A stretch of DNA of 64,000 nucleotides, from positions 3,162,001 to 3,226,000 of the forward strand of contig NC_018017.1 in assembly GCF_000243155.2 (NCBI RefSeq), in the 5' to 3' direction. The notes under the pieces are model-generated. The model saw only the letters and a program-made list of their open reading frames with translations, was not told the origin of the DNA and searched no databases. Shown here one piece after another: positions 6,086-38,517 of this stretch (the stretch's first letter is position 1; the number at the start of each line of letters is the position of its first letter). Both the position numbers and the translations under genes were made by a program. This DNA is from Desulfitobacterium dehalogenans ATCC 51507 (GTDB lineage: Bacteria > Bacillota > Desulfitobacteriia > Desulfitobacteriales > Desulfitobacteriaceae).

Positions 6086-6135
6086 GAAATCAGTAAGAAA
6101 ACAGTGGATTTTCTCCTGTTCCCTTACTCTCTTAT

Positions 6136-9945: not shown

Positions 9946-9969
9946 GGTGATTCCTCCTTCTTCAGCAGC

Positions 9970-12310: not shown

Positions 12311-12385
12311 GAGCTATTCCTCCTTCATTAAGGTAAGTTCCCGGAACCCTATACCGTTCCGGGAACTTAGATACACTTCAGACAT

Positions 12386-12529: not shown

Positions 12530-12587
12530 TCTTTTATCTCCCTTCGTTACTCATTTTTCGTCACTAAAAAAGCGTTTTGTTCAGATA

Positions 12588-13811: not shown

Positions 13812-13830
13812 TCAACAACCACCTTTTTTG

Positions 13831-14643
13831 CTAAAATACTCTTGCTGAAGGAGCACTGATTAGATTATGCAGTAGCTCTTCAGCAATAGATTGAACATTT
13901 TGTGGAACCTTATCACCTTGCTCCATACTTTTCATCGAATTTTCCCATGGAATGCAATAATTAATTTTTTGTTCAATAATCCCTGCTAGTTGTGCTGAAT
14001 CTTTTGATGAGTATGCTTGGTTTGCAATCCAGATTAATTTGTCGCTCAAATTTGCGTATCTGGTTTGCTCATAAAAGCGAATGGCTGCGTCTATTCCCAT
14101 ATCTGTTGGCCGGAACAAAGAAACGATATGATCAGCATCTATCAACGCTGCGCGGGATAATGCATCACTTAGAAGATTTCCGGCATCAACGACCATAAAG
14201 CCGGTACCCGCCATCTTCCTAGCAAGTCGCAATAATTCCAAGGCTTCTTCTTCTTTCCAGGCCCATTGAGTATTATAAGGAGCACCGGATCGGGGTAATG
14301 TGCTTAGGCCTTTTATGATGTTCACTTTAATATCTTCCAATTCACTATTCATTTTTTCACGGTTCTTACTTATTGTATCAAGGCCATTGTTCGCAGGTCT
14401 TTTCCCCATAAGGCGCAAAAAGCTTCCTCCGCTTGCTGCTGCCTCAACAACCAGCACTGTAAATCCCCAACGATGTAAGGTTTTAGACAGAACCGCCGTA
14501 AGGCAAGACGTACCTACTCCTCCCTGTGTTCCATAGACCGCTATAGTTTGATTTGCGGCGATCACCCCAGGACCCCCGGTTCGTCCCCTCACAAGACGAT
14601 CAAATAATCCTCGCTTGTTCATAATTGTTTCAGCGTACTCCAT
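13831..14643 (-). CDS. MinD/ParA-like protein with degenerate P-loop
   Basis: A 270-residue protein related to TadZ/MinD ATPases. The P-loop reads VYGTQGGVGTSCLTAVLSKTL: the Gly frame is kept but GKT is replaced by GTS, so the catalytic lysine is absent. LVVEAAASGGSFLRLMG and MVVDAGNLLSD occupy the switch positions. It sits one gene upstream of the intact tadZ homologue, and a pseudo-ATPase partner of it is a reasonable inference. It may still bind nucleotide. Confidence 0.75.
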   Translation of the reverse strand: MEYAETIMNKRGLFDRLVRGRTGGPGVIAANQTIAVYGTQGGVGTSCLTAVLSKTLHRWGFTVLVVEAAASGGSFLRLMGKRPANNGLDTISKNREKMNSELEDIKVNIIKGLSTLPRSGAPYNTQWAWKEEEALELLRLARKMAGTGFMVVDAGNLLSDALSRAALIDADHIVSLFRPTDMGIDAAIRFYEQTRYANLSDKLIWIANQAYSSKDSAQLAGIIEQKINYCIPWENSMKSMEQGDKVPQNVQSIAEELLHNLISAPSARVF

Positions 14644-14669
14644 AAATGACCTCTTCCTTTTTTATTTTT

Positions 14670-15269
14670 TCAGCGAGCCAAATTCCATGCTCCGGTTGAA
14701 GCATCATAAGAATTAGAGCTGACCATAACATAAATTGGGATTGTCCACCGTGTGAATACTGGGATAAATCCCATATCAATTTTAATGTGCATATCCATTT
14801 TTATATAAACACTTGTACCTGGTACTGGATTCGAAAACTCTGTCGGAGGTAATGAGCCACGGTCACTTTCGCCAAAAGTTTCTAAAGACCTTATTGTATA
14901 AGTGTTACGCGGCCAATCCTTCATTTGGTCTTGTAGAATACTGATAAATTCATTCTGAAAAGCTCCGGCATTCGAGACTTGTACACCATTGTTAGTTGTA
15001 TCAGGGATTGCATGGTTTCCGAAGGCCGTTTTTGCAGCTACCTCAATTCCATAACTGAGATTTGTAGCCATGGCTTGTATCTTACCAACATAGGAGAAGG
15101 CAGCATACACGGCTAAAAGGGTGGATATAAAGAAGATAGCAAGTATATAGATTGGTGGGCCGCCATGTTCGTCACTAAATCGCGAAGCTTTGTATTTTTT
15201 AATGAGATACTTAAAGATATTTATCACCCCCAGTTCATTCTTCACCCTTAAAGACTTTAAGGTTGCCAT
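14670..15269 (-). CDS. TadE-like pseudopilin
   Basis: A 199-residue protein with one hydrophobic helix near residues 43-65 (PIYILAIFFISTLLAVYAAF) behind a basic N-terminus, followed by KIQAMATNLSYGIEVAAKTA, typical of TadE/TadG pseudopilins, and a ~130-residue extracytoplasmic domain. It overlaps the end of the upstream secreted-protein gene by 13 bases. Likely a minor pilus subunit processed by the prepilin peptidase at 19396; the exact cleavage site is not obvious. Confidence 0.7.
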   Translation of the reverse strand: MATLKSLRVKNELGVINIFKYLIKKYKASRFSDEHGGPPIYILAIFFISTLLAVYAAFSYVGKIQAMATNLSYGIEVAAKTAFGNHAIPDTTNNGVQVSNAGAFQNEFISILQDQMKDWPRNTYTIRSLETFGESDRGSLPPTEFSNPVPGTSVYIKMDMHIKIDMGFIPVFTRWTIPIYVMVSSNSYDASTGAWNLAR

Positions 15270-17617
15270 ACAGGAGTACCTGGGTCATGAATTTTTTGAT
15301 TAAAGATATACAGGTCAGTCCCTGTTATATCCAACGTTGTTCCAGCATTCCCGCTGGCTTCATAACTTCCTGATGCCCAGTAATAAAACACACCGAATTC
15401 CGTGACATAAGGCACTTGATAGATATAGTTCACATGTACAGCGAAGGGTGCGTATATATAATTTGTTTCCATGACAGTGTTATCCGGTATAGGTGGTGGG
15501 TATCCTGCCCAATCTACGGTGTATTTTATCGTGCCAACAAGACCATTGAGAGATAAATTAATATCCTCTTCTCTCCTCTTAATTTCCACCTTACCGGTGC
15601 CATCCCAACCGATTTCTCCCCGGGGAGTATGAACCCATGCCTTGGTAATATAAGCACTTGTGACCTGTGCATTGAGTAGCCCCCGTGGCGGCGGTGGCTG
15701 ATCGACTGTTAAGGTGATAGCCAGCTCATTTCCATATTTGGCAGTACCCGCAGGCTGAACGGTATTATTTCTTCTCCATGCCTCGATTTTTAGTTTTCCG
15801 GACAAATTCCCTGGCGGCGGCAAAGGAATGGGATTTACCTTGAACTGTGTTGTGGCTGTTGCTGTCTTACCGCCGGGTTGTGTTGCTGTTAATGTAACCG
15901 TATAGACTGCATCAGCCCCGGTATAATTATTGGGGGCATTCATCACTCCCTGCCATGTTTCCGGTGACCGGCTCCACTGACTTAAGTCCAGATCAACCGT
16001 ATTTTCCCCGCCATCAGTAATATGAGCTTTCACACTCTGGGTTAGGTTCTCCGGAAAGGGCAAGCCTTTGATAATGACCTGTTCCCCACTGTTGACTATG
16101 CCCGGTGAAGCTGTCGCCTTAAGATTATAGTCAGCCGGTGCCCAAATCTCGACGCAGCCTTGACTATTCAGGCCGTAATTCGTCCAAGCACAAACGAAGT
16201 GTAAATCTGAGCCATCCACAGAATCGACACCAACATCGGCGGCAACCGATGTATAAGTCGCGGAGACAGAACCAAGTGTTTGCCAGTAATCCTTAAATTC
16301 ATCGCCAAAGGTTGCGGATGGATTAGTAGCTGTCATGGGATTGGTAACAAGTAGGCCGTTTGTTGTATCGGAAGCAAGAAAAATCGTACTGGTAGATCCG
16401 TTACTCACTACTGCTGGTGAATATAGTCCTGAAAACCGACTTGCCCGAATCCGCATGGAACCAAATGAACTAAGAGGTGCTACGGTAATCGTAGTATGTG
16501 CATTTCCGATCCAGATCACGTTTTGCCCATCTATGGCAATGTTGGAGATATTGGACCGGGCTTTATCCATGGCAGACAGATCCTTTGCCTCAAACACTCC
16601 ATTGGCATTCATCCTGTAAATACCTCCCCAATGGTCCGGTACAAAAATATGCAAATTCGGAGCAATAACCGGCGAGGAATCTATAGGGCCTTCAAAGAAG
16701 CCACGGACCGTTGTAATCTCACCTGTCGTAGGATTCATGATGATGAGACGGTTATCCCCACTCCCATAAGCTGCTACACCGAATACAGCGGCTCCGGTGC
16801 CGCCCACCACTGTTGTGCTGGGATTCCAGGCCGGGGAGGATGTGACGATATCGTTAGTGGCGCGGGAAGTGTCCATTATGGTGTTATATCCTTTTCCTAT
16901 GAATTGTACATTCACAGGTGTATAAAGGGGTTGAGCTAATACCCCACCCGACCATGAACCAACAACGGCGAAGGGAGTTTCCCACGTTATTGTTTCCCAC
17001 GTGAGCATGTTTGTCCCACTTGCAGTTAAAGGTGGAGTAATTAAAGGGGAGGATGCAATTAATTTTATCGCGTTCCCCGAATTGCCTTGAATATTCTTAT
17101 TGAAAACATTTGAAGTCCTATTGCCATTTTCATCAATTGTCCACCAGTACAGATACTCACCCACAGCTATTGCAAGATACCCATCCTTAATAGTTGGCCC
17201 GGAGATCCCAGCAGCTGCATCACGGCCTCCACTTGATCCAACATCAAATGTAGCAATTAAAGTTGCATTTAGTGATATTCCATTGCCTGGTTTCCATGTG
17301 GCATCCGGCTTTTTAAGTTCAATTCGGGTAAGGTAACCTTTGCCTTTCTGATCATAGGTAAATTGATAAAGATTGCTTCCTACAACGGCCGGAGTGGTAT
17401 TAGAATACTGCCGGTTCCCGTTCCATGACGGGATTTGAACATAGTAGGGATTGTTATTGTACTTAAGGTCATTGTATTGAGGGTCAACGACAGTATTATT
17501 TCTTGAGATGTTGGCATTGTGAGTGTAGTTATCTGCCCCAAAGACATTAGCCGGTAGAACAAGAGATAGACAAAGCAAAGTAACAACAAGGGCCATGGTC
17601 CATTGCTTTCTGTGCAA
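15257..17617 (-). CDS. secreted propeller-like and Ig-like surface protein
   Basis: A 786-residue secreted protein of unknown function. The start is TTG at 17617, 7 bases after AGGAGG. A signal peptide (MALVVTLLCLSLVLPANVFG) ends near residue 27. Residues ~50-480 contain repeated blade-like strands (GGRDAAAGISGPTIKDGYLAIAVG, APNLHIFVPDHWGGIYRM, IDGQNVIWIG) resembling a PQQ-type beta-propeller. Residues ~490-600 look Ig-like, and the C-terminal ~150 residues are beta-rich. No LPxTG or membrane anchor was seen. It lies within the pilus cluster, so it may be a pilus-associated surface component. Confidence 0.65.
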   Translation of the reverse strand: MHRKQWTMALVVTLLCLSLVLPANVFGADNYTHNANISRNNTVVDPQYNDLKYNNNPYYVQIPSWNGNRQYSNTTPAVVGSNLYQFTYDQKGKGYLTRIELKKPDATWKPGNGISLNATLIATFDVGSSGGRDAAAGISGPTIKDGYLAIAVGEYLYWWTIDENGNRTSNVFNKNIQGNSGNAIKLIASSPLITPPLTASGTNMLTWETITWETPFAVVGSWSGGVLAQPLYTPVNVQFIGKGYNTIMDTSRATNDIVTSSPAWNPSTTVVGGTGAAVFGVAAYGSGDNRLIIMNPTTGEITTVRGFFEGPIDSSPVIAPNLHIFVPDHWGGIYRMNANGVFEAKDLSAMDKARSNISNIAIDGQNVIWIGNAHTTITVAPLSSFGSMRIRASRFSGLYSPAVVSNGSTSTIFLASDTTNGLLVTNPMTATNPSATFGDEFKDYWQTLGSVSATYTSVAADVGVDSVDGSDLHFVCAWTNYGLNSQGCVEIWAPADYNLKATASPGIVNSGEQVIIKGLPFPENLTQSVKAHITDGGENTVDLDLSQWSRSPETWQGVMNAPNNYTGADAVYTVTLTATQPGGKTATATTQFKVNPIPLPPPGNLSGKLKIEAWRRNNTVQPAGTAKYGNELAITLTVDQPPPPRGLLNAQVTSAYITKAWVHTPRGEIGWDGTGKVEIKRREEDINLSLNGLVGTIKYTVDWAGYPPPIPDNTVMETNYIYAPFAVHVNYIYQVPYVTEFGVFYYWASGSYEASGNAGTTLDITGTDLYIFNQKIHDPGTPVWQP

Positions 17618-17654
17618 ATATATGACCTCCTTTCACACTTTCGGCAATAAAAAA

Positions 17655-17680
17655 TCACCCTCCTCGATTCTGGAAGGTGA
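17655..17680 (-). terminator. terminator just upstream of the 17617 gene
   Basis: On the minus strand TCACCTTCC pairs with GGAGGGTGA and is followed by TTTTTTATTG, only about 25 bases before the AGGAGG of the next gene. It may separate 17696 from 15257 or act as an attenuator. Confidence 0.6.
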
Positions 17681-17695
17681 AATGATGTTATTGAG

Positions 17696-18562
17696 TTATG
17701 CTTTTTTTCTGATAAAGACAGCTCCAACCGAAGCTAAAACCACAACAGCTACTACGACTCCTAACCACATCATGAGATTAGTATTAGACTGCTCCGGCTC
17801 TGGAGCTTGCACAGGAATGCTGGCAACGGGGACCGGTGGTTCATTTACTTTTGGTGGATCTTGAGTAACAAGCTTTTGATTCTCGGTTACCATCTCTTCA
17901 GTCATAGGTGTATCTGGTGTTTTTACCGTTTGCCCAACTGAATCTGACGGATCAGCTTTCGGCTCTGATTCAGATTGTGTTGGTACTGTTGATAAATTAA
18001 CTGGCTCAGTAACCGCATTGACCTGTCCTGTATTGATCGGAAGTTCTGGTTCTGGTTGTACTGGAGCTGGTTCAGCTTCGGCTAGCGGTTTAGGTGCCGT
18101 TGTTTCTGCTGGAACAGTATAACCGCCTTTTTGAAGCCAGGCAATCTGATCATCATTTAATGCTGTGGACTCAGGTGGGATGCTTGCCCCACCCACTTCT
18201 GCAGGATTAAAATTCTGAGATTTCATAGCCGCAAGAACATTAGGAGCGAAGTTAATTGTTGTACCGAGAATTCCACCTTCACCACCCAAGTTCGGTCCAT
18301 AGCCTTCCTTATAAGCTTGTAGAATAGGTTCTACCGGATTAACTTTTTTCCATGATGAGTTGTATGGGATAGATATAAACAAATCTGTTCCAAATCCATC
18401 ACTATAACCGAACGAAATACTTGTTCCGTTCCCATTGGGTCCTGCAACCCATCCCTCAAGCGTAACGCCATGAGGAACGCCTCCTCTAGCTAACGCAACG
18501 CCTGGCAATAACCCTATTAGCAAAGCAACCGTAATAACTAAAGCCTTAATTTTCTTGGTCAT
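17696..18562 (-). CDS. membrane-anchored secreted protein with proline-rich stalk
   Basis: A 288-residue protein. I chose the ATG at 18562 (MTKKIKALVITVALL), preceded by AAGGAGGGG. It has a signal peptide ending ...GVALA, a ~110-residue folded domain (GWVAGPNGNGTSISFGYSDGFG), a long Pro/Glu/Thr-rich stalk and a C-terminal membrane helix (LMMWLGVVVAVVVLASVGAVF) ending RKKA. This layout fits a surface protein tethered in the membrane. It is the first gene after a strong promoter and is followed by the rest of the pilus cluster. Function unknown. Confidence 0.65.
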   Translation of the reverse strand: MTKKIKALVITVALLIGLLPGVALARGGVPHGVTLEGWVAGPNGNGTSISFGYSDGFGTDLFISIPYNSSWKKVNPVEPILQAYKEGYGPNLGGEGGILGTTINFAPNVLAAMKSQNFNPAEVGGASIPPESTALNDDQIAWLQKGGYTVPAETTAPKPLAEAEPAPVQPEPELPINTGQVNAVTEPVNLSTVPTQSESEPKADPSDSVGQTVKTPDTPMTEEMVTENQKLVTQDPPKVNEPPVPVASIPVQAPEPEQSNTNLMMWLGVVVAVVVLASVGAVFIRKKA

Positions 18563-18683
18563 ATCTTTTCCCCTCCTTATAGAAACAACCACTTATCTGG
18601 AGATATGTGACGCTTTTGCAACAGCCACTTGTTAATCAATGTCAGCTTGATTTCTTGAATAAAAAGTCTACTATCTCAATACT

Positions 18684-18712
18684 ATTATATCATAATCAGT
18701 GTGTAATTTCAA
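18684..18712 (-). promoter_or_regulatory. strong sigma-A-type promoter for the pilus cluster
   Basis: On the minus strand TTGAAA (-35) and TATAAT (-10) are separated by exactly 17 bases, preceding the 18562 gene by about 120 bases. The remaining 18,563-18,792 gap is AT-rich with no other clear signal. Confidence 0.7.
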
Positions 18713-18792
18713 GATAATAAGAGAAATCACGAGTTAATTTGATATAATCAACTCAAATCGCATTTTTTATTTTCAGTATCGCGACATTCATT

Positions 18793-19392
18793 TTAGCGCT
18801 CCAAATCCTGCTCGTCCCGGTCGTTACTCCTGTCCTGATTCACACGACTTAACTCAAGAGTCAGCTTCTGTACCTTTTCTTCCAAGACTATGACCTTATT
18901 TTCAAGCTCCCTATTCCTGCTGATCGTTCTCTCCCAATCCTTAACCAAAGCATGTATTCCTTCTACATGTCCCTTAATCTTCTGTTGATCCTTATCCAGA
19001 TTCTTGAAACTATTCTCGTGATCCGCTTTTTCCTTGATGAGATGGTCATTGATTTTTTCTACCTTTGTCAATATGGTGTTTGAGGAAGATAATATTGACT
19101 CTGTAGAGCCTTTAATCGAATCCTTGACTTGCTCATTGAGACTGCAATTACCTTCTTTAATGGCAGCCTCAATATCCTTATGCTGTCCGGAAAGAGTAGT
19201 ATTCGGTACCTCACCAATTTTAAGATTTAGTTTTTTATACCCCTTCACATCGGTAATCCAATTCGCCAAAAGAGTTGATCCTAGCACCGCCACTGCACCA
19301 ATAATCGCAACCGTTAAACTGTCCATTAGAATCTGCCCCCAATTCAAATCTCCTTCACTCCCTTCATTATATCTTTTCCCATCAGTTTCCAT
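18793..19392 (-). CDS. membrane-anchored coiled-coil protein
   Basis: A 199-residue protein with one N-terminal membrane helix (LTVAIIGAVAVLGSTLLANWI) and a long charged C-terminal region with heptad patterns (ENKVIVLEEKVQKLTLELSRV), probably a coiled coil. Start choice is uncertain: ATG at 19392 directly follows the peptidase stop, but ATG at 19326 has a better GGGGG spacing. Not recognised as a known family; its pairing with the peptidase gene suggests a pilus-related role. Confidence 0.55.
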   Translation of the reverse strand: METDGKRYNEGSEGDLNWGQILMDSLTVAIIGAVAVLGSTLLANWITDVKGYKKLNLKIGEVPNTTLSGQHKDIEAAIKEGNCSLNEQVKDSIKGSTESILSSSNTILTKVEKINDHLIKEKADHENSFKNLDKDQQKIKGHVEGIHALVKDWERTISRNRELENKVIVLEEKVQKLTLELSRVNQDRSNDRDEQDLER

Positions 19393-19395
19393 CAA

Positions 19396-19827
19396 TTATA
19401 AAATAATCATTGTCATCCACGCGCCGATTGTCAAAAAAGGACCAAAAGGAACTTGCTGCTTCAGCGTAATTCGTTTGGAAACAATGAGGACCCCCCCCAA
19501 GATAAGAGCCAGTAAAATGGCCCAAACCAGGGTAACCATAACAGGAAGAGGCCCTAAAAATAGAGTCAATGCTGTCACGTATTTAGCATCACCCATACCC
19601 ATGCCGTTGGGGTAAAAATAAGCAACCAAGGCGAATAATCCACCGATGAAAAGTGCTGCCACTCCATTATCAAACAAGACCTGAGAACCCTTAAGACCTG
19701 AGAAAAGTAGCCCTATCCCAAGTAGTGGAAATGTCAGCTTATCCGGAAGCCGCATCTTAAAATAGTCTGTTAGTGCTAAAAAGAATGTTATTAGGACAAA
19801 AACAAAATATAGGAATCCAGTTAACAC
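19396..19827 (-). CDS. tadV: prepilin peptidase, A24 family (TadV/CpaA type)
   Basis: A 143-residue membrane aspartic protease that cleaves prepilin leaders at the membrane. It has both expected aspartates: LTDYFKMRLP near residue 21 and GMGDAK near residue 76, and about five hydrophobic helices. It is short, as in CpaA/TadV enzymes that lack the methyltransferase domain. The start is GTG with GGAGGG upstream. Likely acts on the TadE-like proteins and the small pilin. Confidence 0.88.
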   Translation of the reverse strand: MLTGFLYFVFVLITFFLALTDYFKMRLPDKLTFPLLGIGLLFSGLKGSQVLFDNGVAALFIGGLFALVAYFYPNGMGMGDAKYVTALTLFLGPLPVMVTLVWAILLALILGGVLIVSKRITLKQQVPFGPFLTIGAWMTMIIL

Positions 19828-19910: not shown

Positions 19911-22295
19911 TCACAGTAACATCTTATATTGTTCTCTGATTTTCGCCTTAGATGGGCTTAGTCTGCTTTTGACATTCTCTTGAATTTTTTTTAATCCACC
20001 GGCATCAATACTGTCTTTTCTATCGTATAAGTAAATTTTAGTTTTAAAAATTATAAAAAGCAAAACATCTATATCCTGGGATTTAGTCAGCTCTTTCAAA
20101 TGTTTAGGATAATTAGCGATTCCTAAGTCACATACAATAATACATAAAAATGTCACCCAAAGATCATATTCATTTTTCCCATTAAACTCTTGGATCAATT
20201 TCAAGTATTGGTTCTTCATTTTTTGGGTACCTAATATATAACTCGCTAAGACACTAGAGAATACTAAAACAGGAAATTTATCTGCGCTGTTATTTTTTAA
20301 TAAATAGAAGTGTAAATCTGATAGATGTTGTAAACACTGCTTCAAGCTCTCTATTTTAACATCTTCATTACTTTGATCAGCATTTTGTAAAATACTACCT
20401 AATAAGTACGTTATAAAAAACTTTGTCTTTTGTGTTTCATTTTCTTCGTTAATTTCTTTTGGTATATAATCCCGACCTAAAATTTCTGAAATAAGATTTG
20501 TACAATTTCTCTTTAATCCCGCATAATAAATTATTACTAACGCCCAAGAAGGATTGGTATAGTTTGCAATTATTTCGTTTTCCAATCCTTCGGTTAACAG
20601 ATATTTTGCGGCAAAAAACTCTTGTAATGTATGAAAAGAGAATTCAACTTGATCTTCAGTTCTTTTTATTATACCTGAATTGACTATTTCCTCAAGTAAC
20701 TCCTCCCCTTCTTCATCCAACCCTTTTTGTTTAAATCGTTTGTTGATTTCACTAATAAATTCCCACACAGACATCGAATTGCGGCTTTCTAAAAAAAGTC
20801 TATATGCTATGTAGGATAAATAGTCATGCTTGGTCCTAAAATCAAACTTATATTTAATCGAAAGCTCTTTATCCCATTTGCCTAAATATAACTCAGTATA
20901 TTTTTCAAATAGCTCTGCAACATTAGATGTAATTTCATCACGATGTTCTTCATAGAGTACAAGACATATTGTATAAACGAAAGGTGTCCTTGGAAAATTA
21001 CCTATGCTTATTTTCCTTTCTACAGATTGAAAAGCAACATCTGGTAGAATCGTAGTAGAATTTTTATACCATTGCCTAACTAACTGTTCAGATTTTCGAG
21101 AGTTAAACGGCTCGATTTTACACTTTATTAAATCATCGAATTTTTGGGTAAGTGTAACATCATAATCTCTTGATGCAATTATAAGCGAATTGCCAGGATA
21201 AGCCTTTTTAAAGCTAGCTATCGACTCTTCAAAAGCCTTTTTTTCAGACACCTCAAGGATTTCACTATAAGAGTCAAATAGCAATAGCATATCTCCAGAA
21301 GTAAGTCTTTCTTCTAATTCAGGAATGATCCTTTCTCCATTTTCCTTTTTCAAAATTGATATTAGGGTTGATAAAATATCGTATTTGTTGGCTTCAAGAT
21401 CTTTTACCTTTATAAATACGGGAATAACTCCCTTTTGATGTTCTTGTAGATTATTCAATATCTGTTTACATAATAGGGCTTGTAATAAAGTTGATTTTCC
21501 ACTTCCTTGATCTCCGGTTATTAAAAAATCTTTACGACTTTGCAAAATCTCATCACAAGAATATTTTATTTTTTTATCAACTATCTTTTTGGCCTTTTTT
21601 CTTAACAACTCTTTGTCAGTATTTGCCTCTACAATATCTGGTTCAATGAAGATTTCATTAAACTCTAAATCTTTCTGAGAACCAAATTTTCTTATATCGA
21701 TTAGATACCTATGTTTTTCATAAACCTGAGTATAATAGTCGATATATTGCTTATCTCTAATGCTAAAATACTCAGGATAGTGTTTTTCTAGAAGGTTTAG
21801 GATTTGTTCTCCTTCTAAAAAACTTATTTCATTACTTACTCCTATGCCGTCAACAATTTGTCTTTTTGCACTATTGCTTATTTTTCCATTTGTTATTACA
21901 TACATTGATTTTGGAGAAAACTTACCTCTAGGTTCCACAAAATCATGTTTACGAGTAAATGCAGCTTTAAGTTGATTACCTATAACTGTGATATCGTTTT
22001 TACTTCCAGAACTAGGCGAATTTGTCAGATCACCTACTTTTAATTGAACACCCACCATATGCTTGGTTCCTAAACTATCTTCTTCAAAATATGCTATATC
22101 AAGCCCCGATTCATCATTACCATGTCTAGATTGAACGTGGGACATTTTCCCAATTTTTCTGAACAGTGGCAGTATTACATTTACCCTAAAACTTTCCTCA
22201 TTGAGTTTTTGCAACTCACTTAGCTTCTCTTCTTTAGACATTATTATTTTCACCCAGCCTTCTGAAACAATAAACTTTATTAGATTATTCTTCAT
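19911..22295 (-). CDS. restriction-nuclease plus NACHT defence protein (bacterial NLR-like)
   Basis: A 794-residue protein with three parts. Residues ~50-180 resemble an Mrr-type PD-(D/E)xK nuclease (SGLDIAYF followed by VGVQLKVGD, giving a D...QxK signature). Residues ~230-560 form a NACHT STAND NTPase: Walker A GDQGSGKSTLL, Walker B LLLFDSYSEI, sensor-like IIASRDYD, and the diagnostic FSFHTLQEFFAAKYL. The C-terminus is a helical repeat region, a probable sensor. bNACHT and Avs families with nuclease effectors are known anti-phage proteins. The gene is AT-rich and sits alone between pilus genes, so it looks like cargo. The first ATG is used; MSKEEKLSEL at 22241 is an alternative start. Confidence 0.8.
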   Translation of the reverse strand: MKNNLIKFIVSEGWVKIIMSKEEKLSELQKLNEESFRVNVILPLFRKIGKMSHVQSRHGNDESGLDIAYFEEDSLGTKHMVGVQLKVGDLTNSPSSGSKNDITVIGNQLKAAFTRKHDFVEPRGKFSPKSMYVITNGKISNSAKRQIVDGIGVSNEISFLEGEQILNLLEKHYPEYFSIRDKQYIDYYTQVYEKHRYLIDIRKFGSQKDLEFNEIFIEPDIVEANTDKELLRKKAKKIVDKKIKYSCDEILQSRKDFLITGDQGSGKSTLLQALLCKQILNNLQEHQKGVIPVFIKVKDLEANKYDILSTLISILKKENGERIIPELEERLTSGDMLLLFDSYSEILEVSEKKAFEESIASFKKAYPGNSLIIASRDYDVTLTQKFDDLIKCKIEPFNSRKSEQLVRQWYKNSTTILPDVAFQSVERKISIGNFPRTPFVYTICLVLYEEHRDEITSNVAELFEKYTELYLGKWDKELSIKYKFDFRTKHDYLSYIAYRLFLESRNSMSVWEFISEINKRFKQKGLDEEGEELLEEIVNSGIIKRTEDQVEFSFHTLQEFFAAKYLLTEGLENEIIANYTNPSWALVIIYYAGLKRNCTNLISEILGRDYIPKEINEENETQKTKFFITYLLGSILQNADQSNEDVKIESLKQCLQHLSDLHFYLLKNNSADKFPVLVFSSVLASYILGTQKMKNQYLKLIQEFNGKNEYDLWVTFLCIIVCDLGIANYPKHLKELTKSQDIDVLLFIIFKTKIYLYDRKDSIDAGGLKKIQENVKSRLSPSKAKIREQYKMLL

Positions 22296-24462: not shown

Positions 24463-25059
24463 TCATAGTTCGTGATCCCATTCGTCTTCTTGACCAGCCT
24501 CATCCAGCAAATTTGGAGCGTTTGGTTTACCATCTCGAATCATCTCTTGGTTCCTCATGATACTCACGATGTCAGCGGCTAGTTCTACCGGCTCTTTATC
24601 GTATCGAACACGATCATGCTCCCATGTTCCCCGGGTATGATTGATCCCATTAAGAAGTTTTATCCCCCTGGCCGGGGGCTGCCATAACTTCAGGTTGTGA
24701 GTGTAATCATCCAGGAGACAATCATTTTCCCTTACGCCTCCAGGAATAAAATCCTTTTTGTCACATCCACAGGGAGAGAAAACACGATGGGCTGCATCAA
24801 TTTCGGGTAAATACTGATCCAGCCATTGATTTTTTTCCTCTATGGCATAAGGGTTACCGGCCAAATAAGCCGACAAGATGTTTACCTCGATTTCAGGATT
24901 GTTCCTAATGATAGTTTTTATAGCTTCTACAACATTGTTTATAGGTTTAAGGTTAAAAAAATAACCCTTTTCATAAAGGGTTTCCAAAGTATCGACCTTC
25001 TTAAATTCAGCTAATGTCCCGTCCATATCCACAAACAAGCGTTGTTTTGACATGCTCAC
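24463..25059 (-). CDS. HAD-type 5'(3')-nucleotidase-like protein with C-terminal acidic tag
   Basis: A 198-residue protein with HAD motif I VDMDGTLAEF near residue 10, motif II LSAYLAG and motif IV CLLDDYTHNL, close to the NT5C deoxyribonucleotidase family that removes phosphate from (d)NMPs. The C-terminus adds ~25 residues ending EDEWDHEL, the same tag found on other unrelated proteins of the element. Likely a nucleotide-salvage enzyme, possibly delivered to recipients; delivery is speculative. Confidence 0.75.
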   Translation of the reverse strand: MSMSKQRLFVDMDGTLAEFKKVDTLETLYEKGYFFNLKPINNVVEAIKTIIRNNPEIEVNILSAYLAGNPYAIEEKNQWLDQYLPEIDAAHRVFSPCGCDKKDFIPGGVRENDCLLDDYTHNLKLWQPPARGIKLLNGINHTRGTWEHDRVRYDKEPVELAADIVSIMRNQEMIRDGKPNAPNLLDEAGQEDEWDHEL

Positions 25060-25067: not shown

Positions 25068-25334
25068 TTAAGCTTCAGGTTCCAACTCATCTTCTGGCAG
25101 ATTCTCGGCATATTCCTGATTCGTCGCAAGGGTATCTATCAGGTCTTGGTACTCTTTTTTAAGATAATTTACACCGGCTATGCATTTTTCATTGTAAACA
25201 TCAATAGCCTCTTTCAAGAGCTTAAGTTGATCGGGAGTAACATTCTCTGGGTAATTTTTAAAAAAACTTATCTTTTTAGAAATTCCACTATACAGATACT
25301 CCGAAACCGTTGCCCAATCGCTATATTGCCTCAT
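25068..25334 (-). CDS. small acidic protein ending DELEPEA
   Basis: An 88-residue helical protein of unknown family (ending NLPEDELEPEA). It lies between the relaxase and nucleotidase genes with 8- and 15-base gaps, so it is probably in one transcript. The acidic end resembles the ELEP form of the shared tag. Confidence 0.6.
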   Translation of the reverse strand: MRQYSDWATVSEYLYSGISKKISFFKNYPENVTPDQLKLLKEAIDVYNEKCIAGVNYLKKEYQDLIDTLATNQEYAENLPEDELEPEA

Positions 25335-25349: not shown

Positions 25350-28349
25350 CTAACGCTCGTATCCTTGCCCCTTATCCCATTTGACGTTGCTGCTAAATTT
25401 AAGCTCAAGAATCTTCTCTTTCAGAGCATGTCCTTCAAGGCGAGATAAAGGATATCTGGATGTATTCGGATTATGACCTCCTCTCGTGAATAGATCCAGG
25501 TAATGCATGAGGTATGGGATATTAAGTGAATCCATCTCTTTCAAAAATACTTGAGCTAATTCATTGCCCTGTTCTGCCGATAGGGTGAAATAGTGTCTTG
25601 CCAACTCCTTATCTCGTGGAACATCTTTTCCGGATAGATACACGATGCCGAGCTTGAATTGAGCAAATTGGTTTCCTTGTTCTGCCGACTCATTGAGAAG
25701 TTGTATGCCAACTTGAACATTCTTAGGAACATCTTCACCCTCGATATAGAGCTTACCCAAGCGGTATTGTGCGAACTGGTTTTTCTGTTCGGCCGATGCC
25801 TTAAGTAGATTCACCCCAGCAACCACATCCTTGGGAACAACTTCACCTTCCAGATACAGCTTGCCGAGAGTATACTGAGCGAATTGGTTCCCCTGCTCCA
25901 CCGACGCTTTAATCAATTCTAGCCCAGCGGCCACATCCTTGGGAACGACTTCACCTTCCAGATGCAGCTTGCCAAGAGTATACTGAGCAAATTGGTTCCC
26001 CTGCTCTACAGATGCTTTGAGCAGTTCCAAACCTGCTACCACATCCTTGGGAACGACTTTACCTTCCACATACAGCTTGCCAAGAGCGTACTGAGCAAAT
26101 TGATTTTTTTGCTCTGCCGATGATGTAAGAAGTGTTAATGCTCTAGCAATATCTTTTTCTACATGTTTCCCTTGGATAAGTATTTTCGCCAAAGCATATT
26201 GAGCCTGGGTGTTGCCACCTCCTGCAGCTTTCTCAAGTAACGTTAACGCTTTACGAATTTTATCAGGCGGAGCATTCTCCGTCTCTAAGTAAATCTTTGC
26301 GAGTAAATATTGTGCATTAACATTACCGGTATTCGCAGATTTTTCTAAGTAATCAATGGCTCTGGGTATGTTCTTCTCTGTGCCGGTTCCCGTATAAAGC
26401 ATTTGCCCTAGTCGATATTGCAGCTTATCGTCACGGCTATCTTTTTCCATGGCTGAAAAGCCCGCAAAAGCACATCGGAAATGCTCGTCAGCTTTGCTTG
26501 TATCTTTTTCAGTCCCGATTCCGCCCCGTAGCATTTTGGCAAGCTCATAATCTGCATAAGAGTTACCCTGGATAGCAGATTGGCGGTACAACACGAAGGC
26601 TGTTCCGTAGTCTTGATCAACTCCCTGACCACGATAATATAAACCGGCTAAAGTATATTGAGCATATTTATGATTTTCCTCAACAGCCATCTCTAGCCAA
26701 TTTGCCGCTGCAAAATAATCTTGAAGCGTTCCCAATCCTGTAGCATACATTTTACCTATGCGGTACTGAGCATAGGTCTTTATATATGGCCTACTTGCCT
26801 CACTCTCCACGGCGTTAAATCCAGTGAAAGCTTTTGTGTACCATTCTTGAGCCTGCACAAGATCAATCTCTTCTACTCCAAGCCCGTCTGCATGCATCCG
26901 GCCCAGGTCATGCATGGCTAGGACGTTGCCAGTAAGTGCTTCTTCCGTGAATAATTGATGTGCCTTGCTAAAATCCTGCTTAATTTCATTTTTACCGTAA
27001 AGGTATGTTCGCGCTTCCTTATAACGAGCACTCCAATCAACACGGTATTCTTGGTTTGCGTTATCATCATGGCTGCTTTCCAGATGATCCTGAACATGTA
27101 TGTCCGAATCCCCAACCTCAACTGGCTCTAATTCATGATTACCTTCCTCGATAGGAGCCTCTTCCTTATGCAGCTCAGCCTTACTGTCCTTATCTCGCAG
27201 TTCCATCTTTCTAATTTCAGTAGCCATGACCTCCCTGTCCTTGTATTCCTTGTTTCTATTAAATGCCTCTATAAAGGCTTCCTTGGTCAGATTCTCATCC
27301 AAAGTGCTATTACGACGTTTTCGACCCTCCGGTGTAATAAAGGTTATGTCCTTCCGTGTATCCGTCCAATTAACCTCATAGCCCAGCGTTCTCATATTAA
27401 CTATGAAGTCGGCTCGGCCAATCGAATTCTCCATACAAGTATCAATAGCTTGGCGTAATTTATCTTCCCAGCTTTTCATTGAGTCTTTGGTGTCGTTCTG
27501 CTCATCAGCTTGCTGCTCTGCTTTTTGCGTTTCAGCTCCAGCCTTGGCTACTTGCACAGCAAGCTCCAACTTTTTGATTTCACCAGCCATATCCTCGGGG
27601 TTTTTAAGTTCTTGGTTAAATTTAAAAGTCTCCTCCAGTACTTCCTTAGTCCACTCCTTATCTAAGTTGTCAAGGCGGCATGGTTTACCCTCAGCCGTAA
27701 AGAATGTGATGTCTTTTCTCGTGTCCGTCCATTTGGTGTCATAACCCAGATTCCTCATATTGTTCACGAAGTCATCTCGGTTGACGGAATTTTTCATGCA
27801 TGCATCCACCGCTAAGCGCAACTCATGTTTCCAGCTCCGCCCTATCTGCCTTGCGCGATATTCTCCGGAGGATTCTCTATCCTTCCCCTTATGCTCTATC
27901 GTGCTGAGACTATACTCTCTGCAGAGTTGGTCGGAGAAATCTTTAGCCATCTGCATTTGTGCCGGGCTTTGCTGCCATTTTAGGCCATGTTCCATATTCA
28001 CGGTATTCATCACAAAATGATTGTGCAGGTGATCCTGATCCAGATGCGTTGACACCACCATTTGAAACCCTGAAAAGCGTTCGAACTCCTTAGCAAGCCG
28101 AACGCCAATTTCATGGACTTGCTCCGGCGTTACCTTTTCCTCAGGATGAAACGATTGGACGAAGTGAATGAATTGCCTTTTATCTGTTTTATTGTAGGCC
28201 GTTTTAATCATCAACATTTCTTCGAATGCTGTCTCAGGTGTACAGTTGATCCCGGTAACAAGCTCAGCTTTTTCGGGATTCATAATATAATCCAGCACTA
28301 ATTTAGATGTGTCAGAGTTTTCATCTTTAAGAACCCGTTCAATCGCCAT
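25350..28349 (-). CDS. MobP-type relaxase with C-terminal Sel1-repeat array
   Basis: A 999-residue protein. The relaxase domain nicks oriT and stays bound to the transferred strand. It shows LDYIMNPEK and HxDxxHxHxH (THLDQDHLHNHF, residues ~101-112), the metal-binding triad of MobA/VirD2-like relaxases. Two ~90-residue repeats follow (WTDTRKDITF appears in each), then an acidic linker containing NHELEP, then about a dozen Sel1/TPR-like repeats of ~36 residues (AQYTLGKLYLEGEVVPKDV). In the same frame upstream of this ATG, a second DYITNPEK motif is encoded without an ATG, overlapping mobC, so the true start may lie up to ~40 codons upstream. Confidence 0.88.
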   Translation of the reverse strand: MAIERVLKDENSDTSKLVLDYIMNPEKAELVTGINCTPETAFEEMLMIKTAYNKTDKRQFIHFVQSFHPEEKVTPEQVHEIGVRLAKEFERFSGFQMVVSTHLDQDHLHNHFVMNTVNMEHGLKWQQSPAQMQMAKDFSDQLCREYSLSTIEHKGKDRESSGEYRARQIGRSWKHELRLAVDACMKNSVNRDDFVNNMRNLGYDTKWTDTRKDITFFTAEGKPCRLDNLDKEWTKEVLEETFKFNQELKNPEDMAGEIKKLELAVQVAKAGAETQKAEQQADEQNDTKDSMKSWEDKLRQAIDTCMENSIGRADFIVNMRTLGYEVNWTDTRKDITFITPEGRKRRNSTLDENLTKEAFIEAFNRNKEYKDREVMATEIRKMELRDKDSKAELHKEEAPIEEGNHELEPVEVGDSDIHVQDHLESSHDDNANQEYRVDWSARYKEARTYLYGKNEIKQDFSKAHQLFTEEALTGNVLAMHDLGRMHADGLGVEEIDLVQAQEWYTKAFTGFNAVESEASRPYIKTYAQYRIGKMYATGLGTLQDYFAAANWLEMAVEENHKYAQYTLAGLYYRGQGVDQDYGTAFVLYRQSAIQGNSYADYELAKMLRGGIGTEKDTSKADEHFRCAFAGFSAMEKDSRDDKLQYRLGQMLYTGTGTEKNIPRAIDYLEKSANTGNVNAQYLLAKIYLETENAPPDKIRKALTLLEKAAGGGNTQAQYALAKILIQGKHVEKDIARALTLLTSSAEQKNQFAQYALGKLYVEGKVVPKDVVAGLELLKASVEQGNQFAQYTLGKLHLEGEVVPKDVAAGLELIKASVEQGNQFAQYTLGKLYLEGEVVPKDVVAGVNLLKASAEQKNQFAQYRLGKLYIEGEDVPKNVQVGIQLLNESAEQGNQFAQFKLGIVYLSGKDVPRDKELARHYFTLSAEQGNELAQVFLKEMDSLNIPYLMHYLDLFTRGGHNPNTSRYPLSRLEGHALKEKILELKFSSNVKWDKGQGYER

Positions 28350-28423: not shown

Positions 28424-28765
28424 TTATTTCTTTGTTCTCGCGATTAATAAACTCAAGGATCGCAATATCTTTTTCACCCCCTTCATGTTAGCTTCCAGCT
28501 GCTTGAGTATTTCAGGTTCTTTAATTTTCCCCATATGGCATAAGTGGGTAAGTTGGTTCAGGTTGTTACCCATACCGCCAAGCTGTCGAAGCAAATTGGG
28601 TACATCTTCTACTACATAGATAATTCCTCGTTCCTCCATCATCAGCATGTAATCATTGACATCCATATTCAAACGCTTAGCCTTGTCTTGGACGTCCTTT
28701 TTTCGCTCGGCTGTCGTTCGGATGACGATACGCTCAGGGTTTTTTCTCATCTCCGTCACTTCCAT
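28424..28765 (-). CDS. MobC-like relaxosome accessory protein
   Basis: A 113-residue protein of the MobC type: an N-terminal ribbon-helix-helix-like part (RIVIRTTAERKKDVQDKAKRLNM) and a C-terminal GGMGNNLNQLTHLCHMG motif, characteristic of the family that helps the relaxase bind oriT. I chose ATG at 28765; ATG at 28750 (MRKNPERIV), with GGAAG upstream, is equally plausible. The longer reading from 28942 runs through a palindromic noncoding region. The 3' end overlaps an open relaxase frame. Confidence 0.85.
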   Translation of the reverse strand: MEVTEMRKNPERIVIRTTAERKKDVQDKAKRLNMDVNDYMLMMEERGIIYVVEDVPNLLRQLGGMGNNLNQLTHLCHMGKIKEPEILKQLEANMKGVKKILRSLSLLIARTKK

Positions 28766-28786
28766 TTTCCGGTATCTTAGAGGGGT

Positions 28787-28861
28787 TTGGGGACGCAGTC
28801 CCCAAGGAGGGTTTGGGAGGTACTCCCAACAAGCTATTTGGGTGCGTGGGCACCCAAATAG
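28787..28861. other. candidate oriT with three perfect hairpins
   Basis: Directly upstream of mobC lie three consecutive perfect stems: TTGGGGAC/GTCCCCAA (28787-28805), TTGGGAG/CTCCCAA (28813-28829) and a 12-bp stem CTATTTGGGTGC/GCACCCAAATAG (28834-28861), followed by GGAAGCTTGCCGG. Stem clusters next to mobC and the relaxase gene are typical of transfer origins. The nick site is not identified. They could instead be regulatory hairpins of the mob operon. Confidence 0.55.
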
Positions 28862-28919
28862 GAAGCTTGCCGGGACATAAGACGCAATCTGGGGCGGGGG
28901 ATATTGAAAAAGAAATGCC

Positions 28920-29423
28920 CTACAGTTCGTGATCCCATTCATCTTGAAACTGGTCTAATTCTATGTCTTTCTCCAGGTCTAATCGAATTTCTTTCATCAG
29001 ATCAGCACTGTATTCAGGCCTCACAAAGCGATCAACATCTACACCATGCTGTAAACCCAAGTAGATCTCTCTTAATTTTTCTGCTATACCGTTGCTGTCA
29101 GGATTTTCTTTAAAGTTCAAGAAATCCAAATCCATATAAGAATGGAGCTTATTAACCATAGGGGATGCCGGCTCATTAACACGTTGCACCACATCTACTT
29201 CGTCAACATACGCCCCTAGTAAATCGCTTTTTTGAAGGTTAGGGCGTTCAAGTGAGATCTCCGCCAATGCGGAGCGGTGATTTTCTTTTATGTCGATGAC
29301 TTTACCAAACTCCCAAAAACGATACTTTTCCCTTGGATGATACTGAATAAAAACGGTATCTCCCGCTTGCAGATCCGCAAAGCGTAGAGGATTATTTTTT
29401 TTCAAAATTTCAATGTTTTCCAT
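28920..29423 (-). CDS. element-type protein with GLxxGVDVxxF repeat and DEWDHEL tag
   Basis: A 167-residue protein; I chose ATG at 29423 (MENIEILKKN), preceded by AAGGAGAA. The C-terminal half has REIYLGLQHGVDVDRFVRPEYSADLMKEIRLDLE, a helical motif common in large proteins of Firmicute conjugative elements. It ends FQDEWDHEL, the shared acidic tag. It lies between the candidate oriT and the primase gene. Function unknown. Confidence 0.65.
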   Translation of the reverse strand: MENIEILKKNNPLRFADLQAGDTVFIQYHPREKYRFWEFGKVIDIKENHRSALAEISLERPNLQKSDLLGAYVDEVDVVQRVNEPASPMVNKLHSYMDLDFLNFKENPDSNGIAEKLREIYLGLQHGVDVDRFVRPEYSADLMKEIRLDLEKDIELDQFQDEWDHEL

Positions 29424-29436
29424 TAGAATTCTCCTT

Positions 29437-30402
29437 TCATAGCTCAGCCTCTTCGGCCTGATCCAGCTCCAAATCAACTTCCCTACTCTCCATCTCCTTG
29501 AAAAAAGAGATTAGATCTTCGTTCCAGTCCTTTCCCTTGGGGAAATGATGAGCTATGGAGTAATCTGACTTATACTTATCTGTCCAGCGTTCCACTGCTT
29601 GATGGCCCCATTTGTCATTGTCTACACAGAAAATAATTTGTTTGATTTCGGGATGGTCCTTAAGATATTGTTCTAATGCCACATCACCAAGGCAACCGAG
29701 AGCTAACATATGGTCATGATTTTCAATTCCATACTGTTTGAAAAATGTAGCATAACTTAAAGCGTCAATCGGAGCTTCAAAGACTCGAATCGTATCGCTC
29801 GTCCCATCCATACGGAAGGCCCAAGTCTTGTCTGAGTTAGCTACATCACCACGATAACTGCTACCCATTGTGTTAGTGCTGCGAACTGAGGCATATTTGG
29901 CGACACCATCCTGGTCGTAACCGACAAAAACACAAGATCGATGACTGTTTTCATAAAGCTTCTTTTGCTTGACCATAAAAGAAACAATGTCTTTGTCTAT
30001 CTTTCGTGTGTTGATTAGATATGCAAAGACATGCTTATAGGTATTGTTCTTTTCAGGTAATACGAGCTCACCTTTTTCCACTTCGGGCTTTTGCGGAGGA
30101 CGGTATAAGCTTTGAGCTGAGTCTAAAGTCGCTGATAATCCAAGCAGTTGTTTTACGGCTTCCACCCAGGACTTTTTCTCCATGTACATAACAAACTGAA
30201 TCGGTCCGCCACCCGTTTTGGTTGAAAAGCAGTTCCACCTATGGCCGTTTCCATCAATACGGAGACCACCCTGTTTTGGTATTTTAAATTCTTTAGGTGA
30301 GATTTGTTCAATGGGATAACCCGCTTGCCTGGCATATTCCAGGATGTTAATGTTATTAGCCATGTCAACCTGTTCATCCGTGAAGAGTTTCCGTTTCCCC
30401 AT
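29437..30402 (-). CDS. CHC2/TOPRIM primase-like protein
   Basis: A 321-residue protein with an N-terminal zinc-ribbon-like primase region (INILEYARQAGY, HRWNCFSTKTGGGPIQFVM) and a C-terminal TOPRIM domain (IRVFEAPIDALSYATFF, QIIFCVDNDKWGHQAVERW). Such DUF3991/TOPRIM proteins are common on conjugative elements and are thought to prime the transferred strand in the recipient. The C-terminus (DLELDQAEEAEL) is acidic and loosely resembles the shared tag. Confidence 0.82.
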   Translation of the reverse strand: MGKRKLFTDEQVDMANNINILEYARQAGYPIEQISPKEFKIPKQGGLRIDGNGHRWNCFSTKTGGGPIQFVMYMEKKSWVEAVKQLLGLSATLDSAQSLYRPPQKPEVEKGELVLPEKNNTYKHVFAYLINTRKIDKDIVSFMVKQKKLYENSHRSCVFVGYDQDGVAKYASVRSTNTMGSSYRGDVANSDKTWAFRMDGTSDTIRVFEAPIDALSYATFFKQYGIENHDHMLALGCLGDVALEQYLKDHPEIKQIIFCVDNDKWGHQAVERWTDKYKSDYSIAHHFPKGKDWNEDLISFFKEMESREVDLELDQAEEAEL

Positions 30403-31936: not shown

Positions 31937-32629
31937 TTATGGCTCTAGCTCATGGTCATTTGCAGCATTATCTTGATGATAATAGATAGGCTGATAATTT
32001 GCAGTATCTCTATAGTCAAAACAAGACTCACCGTTTTCTTTAAGGGAGTAATAGTTCATCCCCCCTACAACAAAATGATCATTAATATGAATTCCTATAG
32101 GTTCAAATATATTGGCTAGCTTTTGAGTCAAGGCAATATCTTCTCTACTGGGCGTGGGATCACCAGAGGGGTGATTATGCGCTAGAAAAATTGAGGAGCA
32201 ACTGCAATCTAATGCTCTCTTTAAAATCTCTTTTGGATAAACGGCGGCCGAATTGATATCCCCTTCGCTCATTATCCTCGTTTCAATGACTTTTAGCTTG
32301 GTATCCATGAAAGCAACCATGAAGACCTCTTTATCTCTCTTGCCCTCCAGGAAGGATACAAAATATCTTCCTGCAGCAGAAACATCATCCAATACCATCC
32401 TTGTAGTTTCTGCAGTTCTTAACACGTTATAGCTTTTGATTAGTTTTTTGAGAAGTTCAATTCGCTCCAACTGTTCTGAAGTCGGATCGACTAGTTCCGG
32501 ATAATCCATGATATTGAAAATAGAACTTGATTTACTATATTCTTTGAGCTGGGCATGAGAAAGGCCGGTAAGCCCGGCCAAACCACTCAAAAAAATCTCT
32601 TTATATGCAAGGTTTTGAGAAGGGTTCAT
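31937..32629 (-). CDS. RadC-like JAB-domain protein with HELEP tag
   Basis: A 230-residue protein with an N-terminal helical part and a C-terminal JAB/MPN+ domain: HNHPSGDPTPSREDIALT gives the metal-binding HxHx10D pattern. RadC-type proteins are frequent on mobile elements; their function is unsettled (a peptidase or DNA role has been proposed). After the domain there are ~35 extra residues ending NDHELEP, a form of the shared acidic tag. It overlaps the 32626 gene by 4 bases. Confidence 0.82.
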   Translation of the reverse strand: MNPSQNLAYKEIFLSGLAGLTGLSHAQLKEYSKSSSIFNIMDYPELVDPTSEQLERIELLKKLIKSYNVLRTAETTRMVLDDVSAAGRYFVSFLEGKRDKEVFMVAFMDTKLKVIETRIMSEGDINSAAVYPKEILKRALDCSCSSIFLAHNHPSGDPTPSREDIALTQKLANIFEPIGIHINDHFVVGGMNYYSLKENGESCFDYRDTANYQPIYYHQDNAANDHELEP

Positions 32630-35064: not shown

Positions 35065-35742
35065 TCATGGTTCCAGTTCCCACTCATCATCCATTTCCCG
35101 ATACTCTTCTATTACTACGACTGACTTATTTTCCTCAATGAAAGAATCCCTTTCCAATTCCGGGATAATTTGTCTAAGGTTTTCTTTGTATAGGTTGTTA
35201 AGCTCAGTATTATCTCCCTTAAATGACGCTATATAGGCTCCCACTAATTGATTTTTGTCAAATTCCGAATAGTTGAGTTCATATCCGGCCTCTTTAGCGA
35301 GGCAGCGAATGAACTCCCTGGTAGCTCTCCCATTTCCCTCCCTGAAAGGATGTATAGCGTTAATTTCTGAAGTATAATGCGCTAACCTTTCACTCACTTT
35401 ATCAAGACTTAAACCTTGAAGATAATTATCCTTTTTCAAAGCTTTAAAAAGCTCATCACATGAGGGCTCTATTAAATGATAGAGAGCAAACAACGAATTT
35501 CCTTTAGCAATATTCGTCAAACGAATTTGGCCAGCCCAACCGTACATATCCTGAAAAATATGATGATGAATCTTCTGCAGATGCTGTAAGTCAAACCTGC
35601 CAGGGATTGGTTCCTTTTCAAGTTGAGCCAAGCGAAAAAAAGTAAGCCCCCTTTCCATCTCATGGAGTTTTCCTGAGTCTTTTATCCCTAATTTGTTTTT
35701 AAGAATGTTTGTATCGGGATAGCAATATTCTATCCTATCCAT
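35065..35742 (-). CDS. Fic-domain toxin with C-terminal acidic tag
   Basis: A 225-residue protein with the complete Fic motif HPFREGNGRATR near residue 130, predicted to transfer AMP from ATP to a target protein. A flap-like LTNIAKGNSLFA segment and the fold pattern (HHHIFQDMYGWAGQIR) fit class I Fic toxins such as VbhT and FicT. The C-terminus has ~20 residues after the Fic fold ending MDDEWELEP, the shared tag. Its start immediately follows the antitoxin stop. In VbhT, a Fic toxin is delivered by a conjugative T4SS; delivery here is inferred. Confidence 0.85.
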   Translation of the reverse strand: MDRIEYCYPDTNILKNKLGIKDSGKLHEMERGLTFFRLAQLEKEPIPGRFDLQHLQKIHHHIFQDMYGWAGQIRLTNIAKGNSLFALYHLIEPSCDELFKALKKDNYLQGLSLDKVSERLAHYTSEINAIHPFREGNGRATREFIRCLAKEAGYELNYSEFDKNQLVGAYIASFKGDNTELNNLYKENLRQIIPELERDSFIEENKSVVVIEEYREMDDEWELEP

Positions 35743-38085: not shown

Positions 38086-38517
38086 TCATGGTTCCAAATC
38101 CCACTCATCATTCATTTCTACATGAACTTGAGCTTGCGGAGTACCCTTTCCTGACAGTTCCATCAATTCTTCTTCTAGTGCTTTATCCCAGTTGTCAAAA
38201 CATGATTTTATTTCATCATAATTGCCTCGAACCTCTTTCCAACGAAATTCTGGATCTGCATAATCTTCTACTGGAAGCGAGTATTTAAAACCTGCCCTGT
38301 TATTTTCATCATAAACGTTGATGGAAACCGCGTGTATTCCTTTTCCCTTGTGGTCGGTCCACATAGGATGGGCTTCTAACGAGAGTTTCAATGAATCTTT
38401 TTCTTGTAGTATAATCTCTCTAGTTTTTCCAATTCTGAGATCATCATAATTCTCATCATATATTCTTTTGAAATCAATCTCATTATTATTGCTACTCAAA
38501 TCAAGGATGTCACTCAT
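38086..38517 (-). CDS. hypothetical protein with DEWDLEP tag
   Basis: A 143-residue acidic protein of unknown family (beta-rich middle IHAVSINVYDENNRAGFKYSLPVEDY). The end, MNDEWDLEP, is one of the clearest copies of the shared C-terminal tag. It is followed by a terminator of the same family as that after the Fic gene, and the DNA around both stops is similar. Confidence 0.6.
   Translation of the reverse strand: MSDILDLSSNNNEIDFKRIYDENYDDLRIGKTREIILQEKDSLKLSLEAHPMWTDHKGKGIHAVSINVYDENNRAGFKYSLPVEDYADPEFRWKEVRGNYDEIKSCFDNWDKALEEELMELSGKGTPQAQVHVEMNDEWDLEP

Follow-up and report, generated by a model that had tools for sequence, protein, structure and literature searches.

The window analysed here, a 64,000-nucleotide stretch of the Desulfitobacterium dehalogenans ATCC 51507 genome (NC_018017.1, positions 3,162,001 to 3,226,000), encodes a MOBP-type relaxase that carries an array of Sel1 repeats (Table 1). 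Just outside the window, on its left side in this genome, lie genes for an integrase, a VirB4-like ATPase, TrbL and a TraG/VirD4-type coupling protein, and because these form one cluster with the relaxase the locus is an integrative conjugative element. A 5′-nucleotidase-like gene sits directly downstream of the relaxase gene, whilst upstream of it the same strand carries MobC-like, primase, RadC, ParB, ParA and Fic genes. Several proteins encoded near the relaxase have an acidic C-terminal tail in common (DEWDHEL, DEWELEP or DEWDLEP). The first-pass annotation had proposed that the Sel1 array might be the receptor for these tails, and that an exported relaxase could take tagged proteins with it as it accompanies the DNA strand. 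More probably, in our view, each class of element marks proteins at the C-terminus with a signal of its own for export together with the DNA, and the coupling protein or an adaptor reads it.

DEWDHEL occurs twice in the D. dehalogenans genome, on the nucleotidase and on a 185-residue protein. A looser pattern, GANGANTGGGANNNNGANNYNTRR, stands for D/E-D/E-W-D/E-x-D/E followed by L, P or another residue with an NYN codon and then a stop, written TRR, which admits TGG too. It has four matches in the 4.32-Mb genome, all inside the element, and none in a reversed control; the two beyond DEWDHEL are the Fic/DOC protein and a 143-residue protein. Across the order there are 13 matches in 7/73 genomes, nine of which fall on three relaxase-bearing contigs (G000, G003:C19 and G021:C35). 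The other four (G012:C21, G018:C40, G063:C79 and G070:C11) are taken as chance, since the control yields equally many (4). The matches on G012:C21 and G018:C40 lie antisense to a longer open reading frame (ORF), and that on G070:C11 ends in TGG, not a stop. At the level of the phylum 19/398 genomes have a match, with more than one match in the D. dehalogenans genome and G003 only. This relaxase type is present in seven genomes (G000, G003, G022, G027, G012, G023 and G021), each of which has variants of the tail on at least two proteins, and in this acidic class the tail is borne by no fewer than five unrelated families (ArdC, SNF2, Fic, RadC and nucleotidase). It is an acidic, aromatic-centred peptide of 7-8 residues at the extreme C-terminus of co-encoded proteins.

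Other elements have other tails. In 11 genomes of the order we found relaxases that match the window relaxase well in the Sel1 part only. One of these, at locus L050, was identified as MobL/MobP3 (NF041499, 397 bits against a cut-off of 150), a model for which no match was reported with the window relaxase, and four more share the L050 relaxase domain at 53-71% identity. MobP3 relaxases of the order-level loci have a Sel1 array homologous to that of the window relaxase, but an unrelated relaxase domain and a different tail class. Proteins of the MobP3 elements end in GMTMNM, GMKME, GFSMSM, NFSMTM and similar peptides, and the L060 relaxase itself ends in GMTMTM. At L047, L050 and other MobP3 loci, tails of the GMTMxM type are found on DUF3849, DUF6103, DUF6329, amidoligase and primase proteins. 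A third group of elements, with shorter relaxases lacking Sel1 repeats and a giant SNF2 protein, encodes proteins ending in ..ER or ..R, a weaker signal. Among plasmids, the MobP3 relaxase of a Subdoligranulum plasmid has a shorter Sel1 array by eye; the MobP3 plasmid CP141730.1 (L142), whose relaxase has no evident Sel1 array, showed no clear common tail by eye, and R-ended tails were present on a few genes only of an Enterococcus plasmid (L143).

For each class a tail profile was trained on a single element and then applied to the others at p<=0.01, the classes being A (the acidic-tail group), B (MobP3), C (non-Sel1) and D (gut loci), together with chromosomal loci. The test loci comprised 8 of class A (the window being reserved for training), 12/17 of class B (L047 was used for training; L058, L063, L064 and L067 were left out), 8/12 of class C (L074 was used for training; L069, L070 and L071 were left out), 16/23 gut loci and 4 chromosomal loci. 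The acidic profile matched 11/66 proteins in A, 1/77 in B, 1/54 in C, 2/159 in D and 1/35 chromosomal proteins. For the GMTM profile the counts were 16/77 in B, 2/66 in A, 1/54 in C, 3/159 in D and 0/35 chromosomal. The acidic and MobP3 classes are thus sharply separated, whereas the signal of the third class is weak. Moreover, homologous cargo proteins mostly change their tails according to the class of element to which they belong. Primases of the acidic class end in EEAEL or EEAEM, those of MobP3 elements in NFSMTM and those of the third class in RGQER; SNF2 ends in NEWEQEL in the acidic class versus VGYER in the third; and ArdC ends in DEWDLEL in the acidic class versus EPER or EMER in the third. 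Over primase, SNF2, ArdC, Fic, RadC and ParB, compared without the three training loci, gut loci, short matches and identical tails, the profile-assigned tail agreed with the element class in 42/49 rows, a figure equalled in 0/20,000 shuffles, also when shuffling was confined within families. The sharing of the acidic tail by at least five unrelated families is a stronger point than this row count.

The tail class is accompanied by a class of conjugation machinery. Coupling proteins are 62-90% identical within a tail class and 26-29% between classes (compared without L060, whose coupling protein was not identified). For VirB4 the corresponding values are 73-95% and 25-28%, and relaxase domains are 53-87% identical within a class, with no full-length match between classes. 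At L044, L046 and L053 the gene of a 228-residue protein, a candidate adaptor, overlaps the coupling-protein gene. Two mobilizable loci, L070 (20 kb) and L071 (11 kb), encode a serine recombinase together with a Sel1-free MOBP relaxase, and tblastn returned no match there to the coupling protein, VirB4 or TrbL. Their relaxases end in ..KKLAIGQKEDDHSGHDFEMKM and ..KKLAQGHKLSGEQEQEFTHSL (in short form, ..KKLAIGQKEDDH..FEMKM and ..KKLAQGH..EFTHSL), close to the MobP3 ending ..EKKIAQGHAxDDHE... Judged from sequence, these two cases suggest that it is the C-terminal segment of the relaxase, not the array, that may be read by the helper machine.

Under the mechanism that we favour, the coupling protein or an adaptor would read the acidic, aromatic-centred peptide of 7-8 residues borne by several proteins of the element, and the tailed proteins would be exported with the conjugated DNA; other element classes would follow the same scheme with other tails, and the Sel1 array would act as a scaffold apart from tail reading. 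The earlier proposal that tagged proteins travel with the DNA is thus likely right, judging from the types of cargo and the element-specific tails, whilst the role it gave the Sel1 array as carrier is not supported. We also lean, if only modestly, towards a broader scheme for Clostridia in which the address labels of conjugative elements are short, interchangeable C-terminal peptides (acidic DEWDxEL, GMTMxM and ..ER), one per class of conjugation machine and grafted onto many unrelated proteins. Each element would inject an establishment and anti-defence kit with its DNA, and mobilizable elements would copy the label of their helper.

Several observations weigh against an export signal read by the coupling protein. 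ParA, ParB, MobC, the methylase and the relaxase of the acidic-tail group are untailed, and the primases of that group have weak tails (EEAEL, EEAEM and EEAII). Three of the 11 class A matches of the acidic profile look like chance, leaving eight that are clear, and taken by itself the R/ER tail is a weak mark of class C, matching 7/54 proteins in C versus 3/66 in A, 4/77 in B, 8/159 in D and 2/35 chromosomal proteins. The seven disagreeing cargo rows are three class B primases (two ending in YNLS and one probably truncated), one class B Fic protein and three class A ParB proteins, whilst among the 42 agreeing rows one class B Fic protein (z -0.2), two class A primases (z 1.2) and one class A ParB are weak. 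One protein (L080) was counted twice, some rows have close kin among the training proteins, and class members are close relatives within each family, so the rows are not independent. Furthermore, the coupling protein, VirB4 and the relaxase domain co-vary, so that the receptor is not singled out among the three. Lastly, in the later Sel1 repeats the arrays of the window and G003 resemble other acidic-tail arrays (0.70) more than they do those of MobP3 relaxases (0.62), a point taken up below.

Amongst the alternatives, the tails could be docking peptides for an element-specific partner in the donor or recipient rather than export signals. The C-terminal tail of the single-stranded DNA-binding protein (SSB), which recruits partners for DNA processing, is similar in character to the acidic tail, and several of the cargo proteins have DNA-related domains. 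However, the type of tail tracks the class of coupling protein and type IV secretion system (T4SS) over unrelated cargo, hydrophobic tails included, and we regard recruitment of this kind as unlikely.

A receptor role for the Sel1 array, in which it would hold the acidic tails and so take tagged proteins with the DNA strand, has a precedent in the TPR clamps that bind EEVD tails. The relaxase itself is well supported, with 131.4 bits to Pfam Relaxase PF03432 (cut-off 24.6). Its HLHNHF motif is invariant across six aligned relaxases, and nicking with covalent attachment at the origin of transfer (oriT) is its predicted activity. It is not a member of the NCBIfam families TraI_MobP_relax (41 bits, cut-off 250) or SAG1250 (65.8 bits, cut-off 575). 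In a named genome collection the closest relaxase domains are 68-71% identical and come from 5/29 loci, all in Desulfosporosinus, and those of the other 24/29 loci are 29-45% identical. With the whole relaxase as query, 0/1896 plasmid records had a single place covering 80% of the query, and among the 40 matches listed all fall in the Sel1 part. Ahead of the array the protein contains a duplicated segment, SW..xLR.A.D.CM.NS..R.DF..NMR.LGY...WTDTRKDITF. The segment that follows the array is kept in the seven relaxases of the acidic-tail group shown, and MobP3 relaxases differ there.

The array, put at about 12 units by the first-pass annotation, is borne out. Sel1 PF08238 scores 252.9 bits (cut-off 30.7), with eight stretches passing individually, and an AlphaFold2 model of residues 434-999 is a solenoid of 13 helix pairs over residues ~460-938, with predicted local distance difference test (pLDDT) values, as ten-residue means, mostly of 80-97 and a minimum of 72. 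Foldseek with this model retrieved the solved Sel1 proteins 6ok3, 6deh (LpnE), 8sxq (LceB) and 1ouv (HcpC), which have the same alpha-solenoid fold but are catalogued as Sel1 repeat or effector proteins, whereas the window protein is a relaxase. All seven genomes with acidic-tail elements hold a Sel1 relaxase (in G021 split over contig ends), so that tagged relatives without one, which would have spoken against an array receptor, were not seen among them.

The array does not behave as a reader of the tail, however. Its first ~250 residues are 59-74% identical between the acidic group and the main MobP3 set, comparable to the 64-67% between two subclades within the acidic group, although the tails are unrelated. 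A column comparison of the first half in 5 class A and 7 class B relaxases (L046 left out) gave fixed differences in 6/259 columns. The MobP3 loci L060 and L066 keep a GMTM-type tail, yet their Sel1 block is 52-59% identical to both other sets and, at 55-59%, further from the main MobP3 set than the acidic-group block is. In a midpoint-rooted tree of the N-terminal block of 6 class A and 14 class B relaxases, L060 and L066 stand apart from the rest (100/100) and a single origin of the acidic-class arrays is weakly supported (56/93). The first half shows no co-variation with tail class. The later repeats, picked by regular expression from 6 class A and 9 class B relaxases, are mixed: alongside the affinity of the window and G003 noted above, the remaining acidic-tail arrays score higher against MobP3 (0.69) than against the window and G003 (0.63), so there is no clear class signal.

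Moreover, tailed cargo is present in non-Sel1 elements too, relaxase length ranges from 829 to 1053 residues under the one acidic tail class, and the net charge of the array is negative (-3 to -20), as is that of the tails. AlphaFold2 read-through fusions of the array and a tail placed no tail confidently (tail pLDDT about 46 and 32-35). As single chains from five-sequence alignments, the second poor overall (mean pLDDT 60), and judged by pLDDT rather than by contacts, these models are a weak negative for the groove binding that had been expected. We therefore rejected the array as the leading receptor model on the cross-class comparison, charge and AlphaFold2, and hold it to be distinctly improbable; the best explanation is that two unrelated relaxases share the array as a separate scaffold that binds proteins. 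As C-terminal degrons, the tails would hold establishment proteins at low levels until conjugation; this would suit their position at the extreme C-terminus, but is scarcely credible because the tails differ by element class within one order and one genome (G021, with contigs of both classes) and each element would need its own protease specificity.

Table 1. Features of the window, with positions numbered from its first nucleotide.
Feature	Position	Strand	C-terminus or tail	Basis and remarks
MOBP-type relaxase with Sel1 array, 999 aa	25350..28349	-	..KGQGYER	ORF, Pfam, AlphaFold2
Relaxase nuclease domain, residues 21-148, HLHNHF histidine motif	27906..28289	-		Pfam PF03432, sequence
Sel1 array, residues ~442-945, ~13 helix pairs	25515..27026	-		Pfam, AlphaFold2, sequence comparison
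54-residue segment after Sel1 array	25353..25514	-	..LEGHALKEKILELKF..WDKGQGYER	Sequence
Duplicated segment in relaxase	27327..27836			
NT5C-like 5′-nucleotidase	24463..25059	-	DEWDHEL	ORF, Pfam
88-aa protein	25068..25334	-	EDELEPEA	ORF
MobC/NikA-like relaxosome protein	28424..28942	-	No tail	Pfam; start uncertain, homologs 108-109 aa
185-aa protein	28920..29477	-	DEWDHEL	ORF; no Pfam match
Primase-like DUF3991/Toprim protein	29437..30402	-	EEAEL (weak)	Pfam
RadC/JAB protein	31937..32629	-	NDHELEP	Pfam; homologs DELELEP, DEPELEL, KDFELEF
Fic/DOC protein	35065..35742	-	DEWELEP	Homologs DDWDYEL, DDWENEL
143-aa protein	38086..38517	-	DEWDLEP	No homolog among loci compared
Inverted-repeat region	345..6976			
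Tad/type IV pilus-like cluster	9130..19827			
NACHT/STAND-type NTPase	19911..22295			

Homologs of the 5′-nucleotidase end in DEWENVP, EPEWDYER, DNEWENAP, EAECENAP and DGEWDQDFI, and relatives of the 88-residue protein in other elements (82-187 residues) mostly end in EDEYDxE[IV] or KDEYDMEI. The element's own coupling protein reads in two overlapping frames of 169 and 507 residues (L092 13514-15543; genome 3155514-3157543) and is a single frame in four relatives, so the present-day activity of the element is unsure. Within the element lies a Tad/type IV pilus-like cluster with a T2SSE ATPase, ParA-like ATPases and a prepilin peptidase, the T2SSF match being below the cut-off; G027 and G021 contain relatives of the cluster, and G022, G003 and G012 have a T2SSE homolog that is more distant. 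About 1.4 kb from the integrase gene is a region of large inverted repeats (948 nt at 96% and 1337 nt at 87%), which sit in ORFs with common C-terminal sequences on both strands and adjoin the gene of an Ig-like surface protein; it looks like an invertible, shufflon-type region. A NACHT/STAND-type NTPase gene in a low-GC stretch (30% GC) is possibly an inserted defence gene.

We searched the open-licence literature, outside which most subscription papers fall, through titles and the beginnings of abstracts, for Sel1 relaxases, C-terminal signals in Gram-positive bacteria and integrative conjugative elements, MobP3 with Sel1, and integrative conjugative elements of Desulfitobacterium, and found no description there of such tails or of a Sel1 relaxase acting as a receptor. 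Should the tails prove to be export labels, one could tell from the sequence of a conjugative element which proteins it injects. Knowing which label goes with which coupling protein would help to explain which mobilizable elements ride which helper, and the tail would serve as a short tag with which to direct proteins from one laboratory bacterium to another.

C-terminal translocation signals of T4SSs are familiar from VirE2 and VirF. Those of RalF and CagA, cited in PMC3297438, resemble the tails in being short and read by VirD4-type receptors; the tails differ in that one motif stands on several unrelated proteins and is changed wholesale between element classes. Signals vary between and within systems, the C-terminal ones being positive or hydrophobic, according to PMC11288057. 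In the F system, plasmid proteins are transferred with DNA in a manner dependent on the coupling protein; with pED208, proteins of plasmid maintenance and anti-stress function accompany the DNA in a TraD-dependent way, much as we propose here, although the accessible passages of these papers describe no common tail and the present element is of the Clostridia type (PMC8406263, PMC11288057). The nearest likeness to the tailed Fic protein is in Bartonella conjugation, where, according to PMC5675462, Fic proteins (the toxin VbhT and the Beps) carry the secretion signal of the element and are co-transferred. Their signal is a BID domain, which the relaxase has too, whereas here it would be a peptide of 7-8 residues, and the relaxase ends differently.
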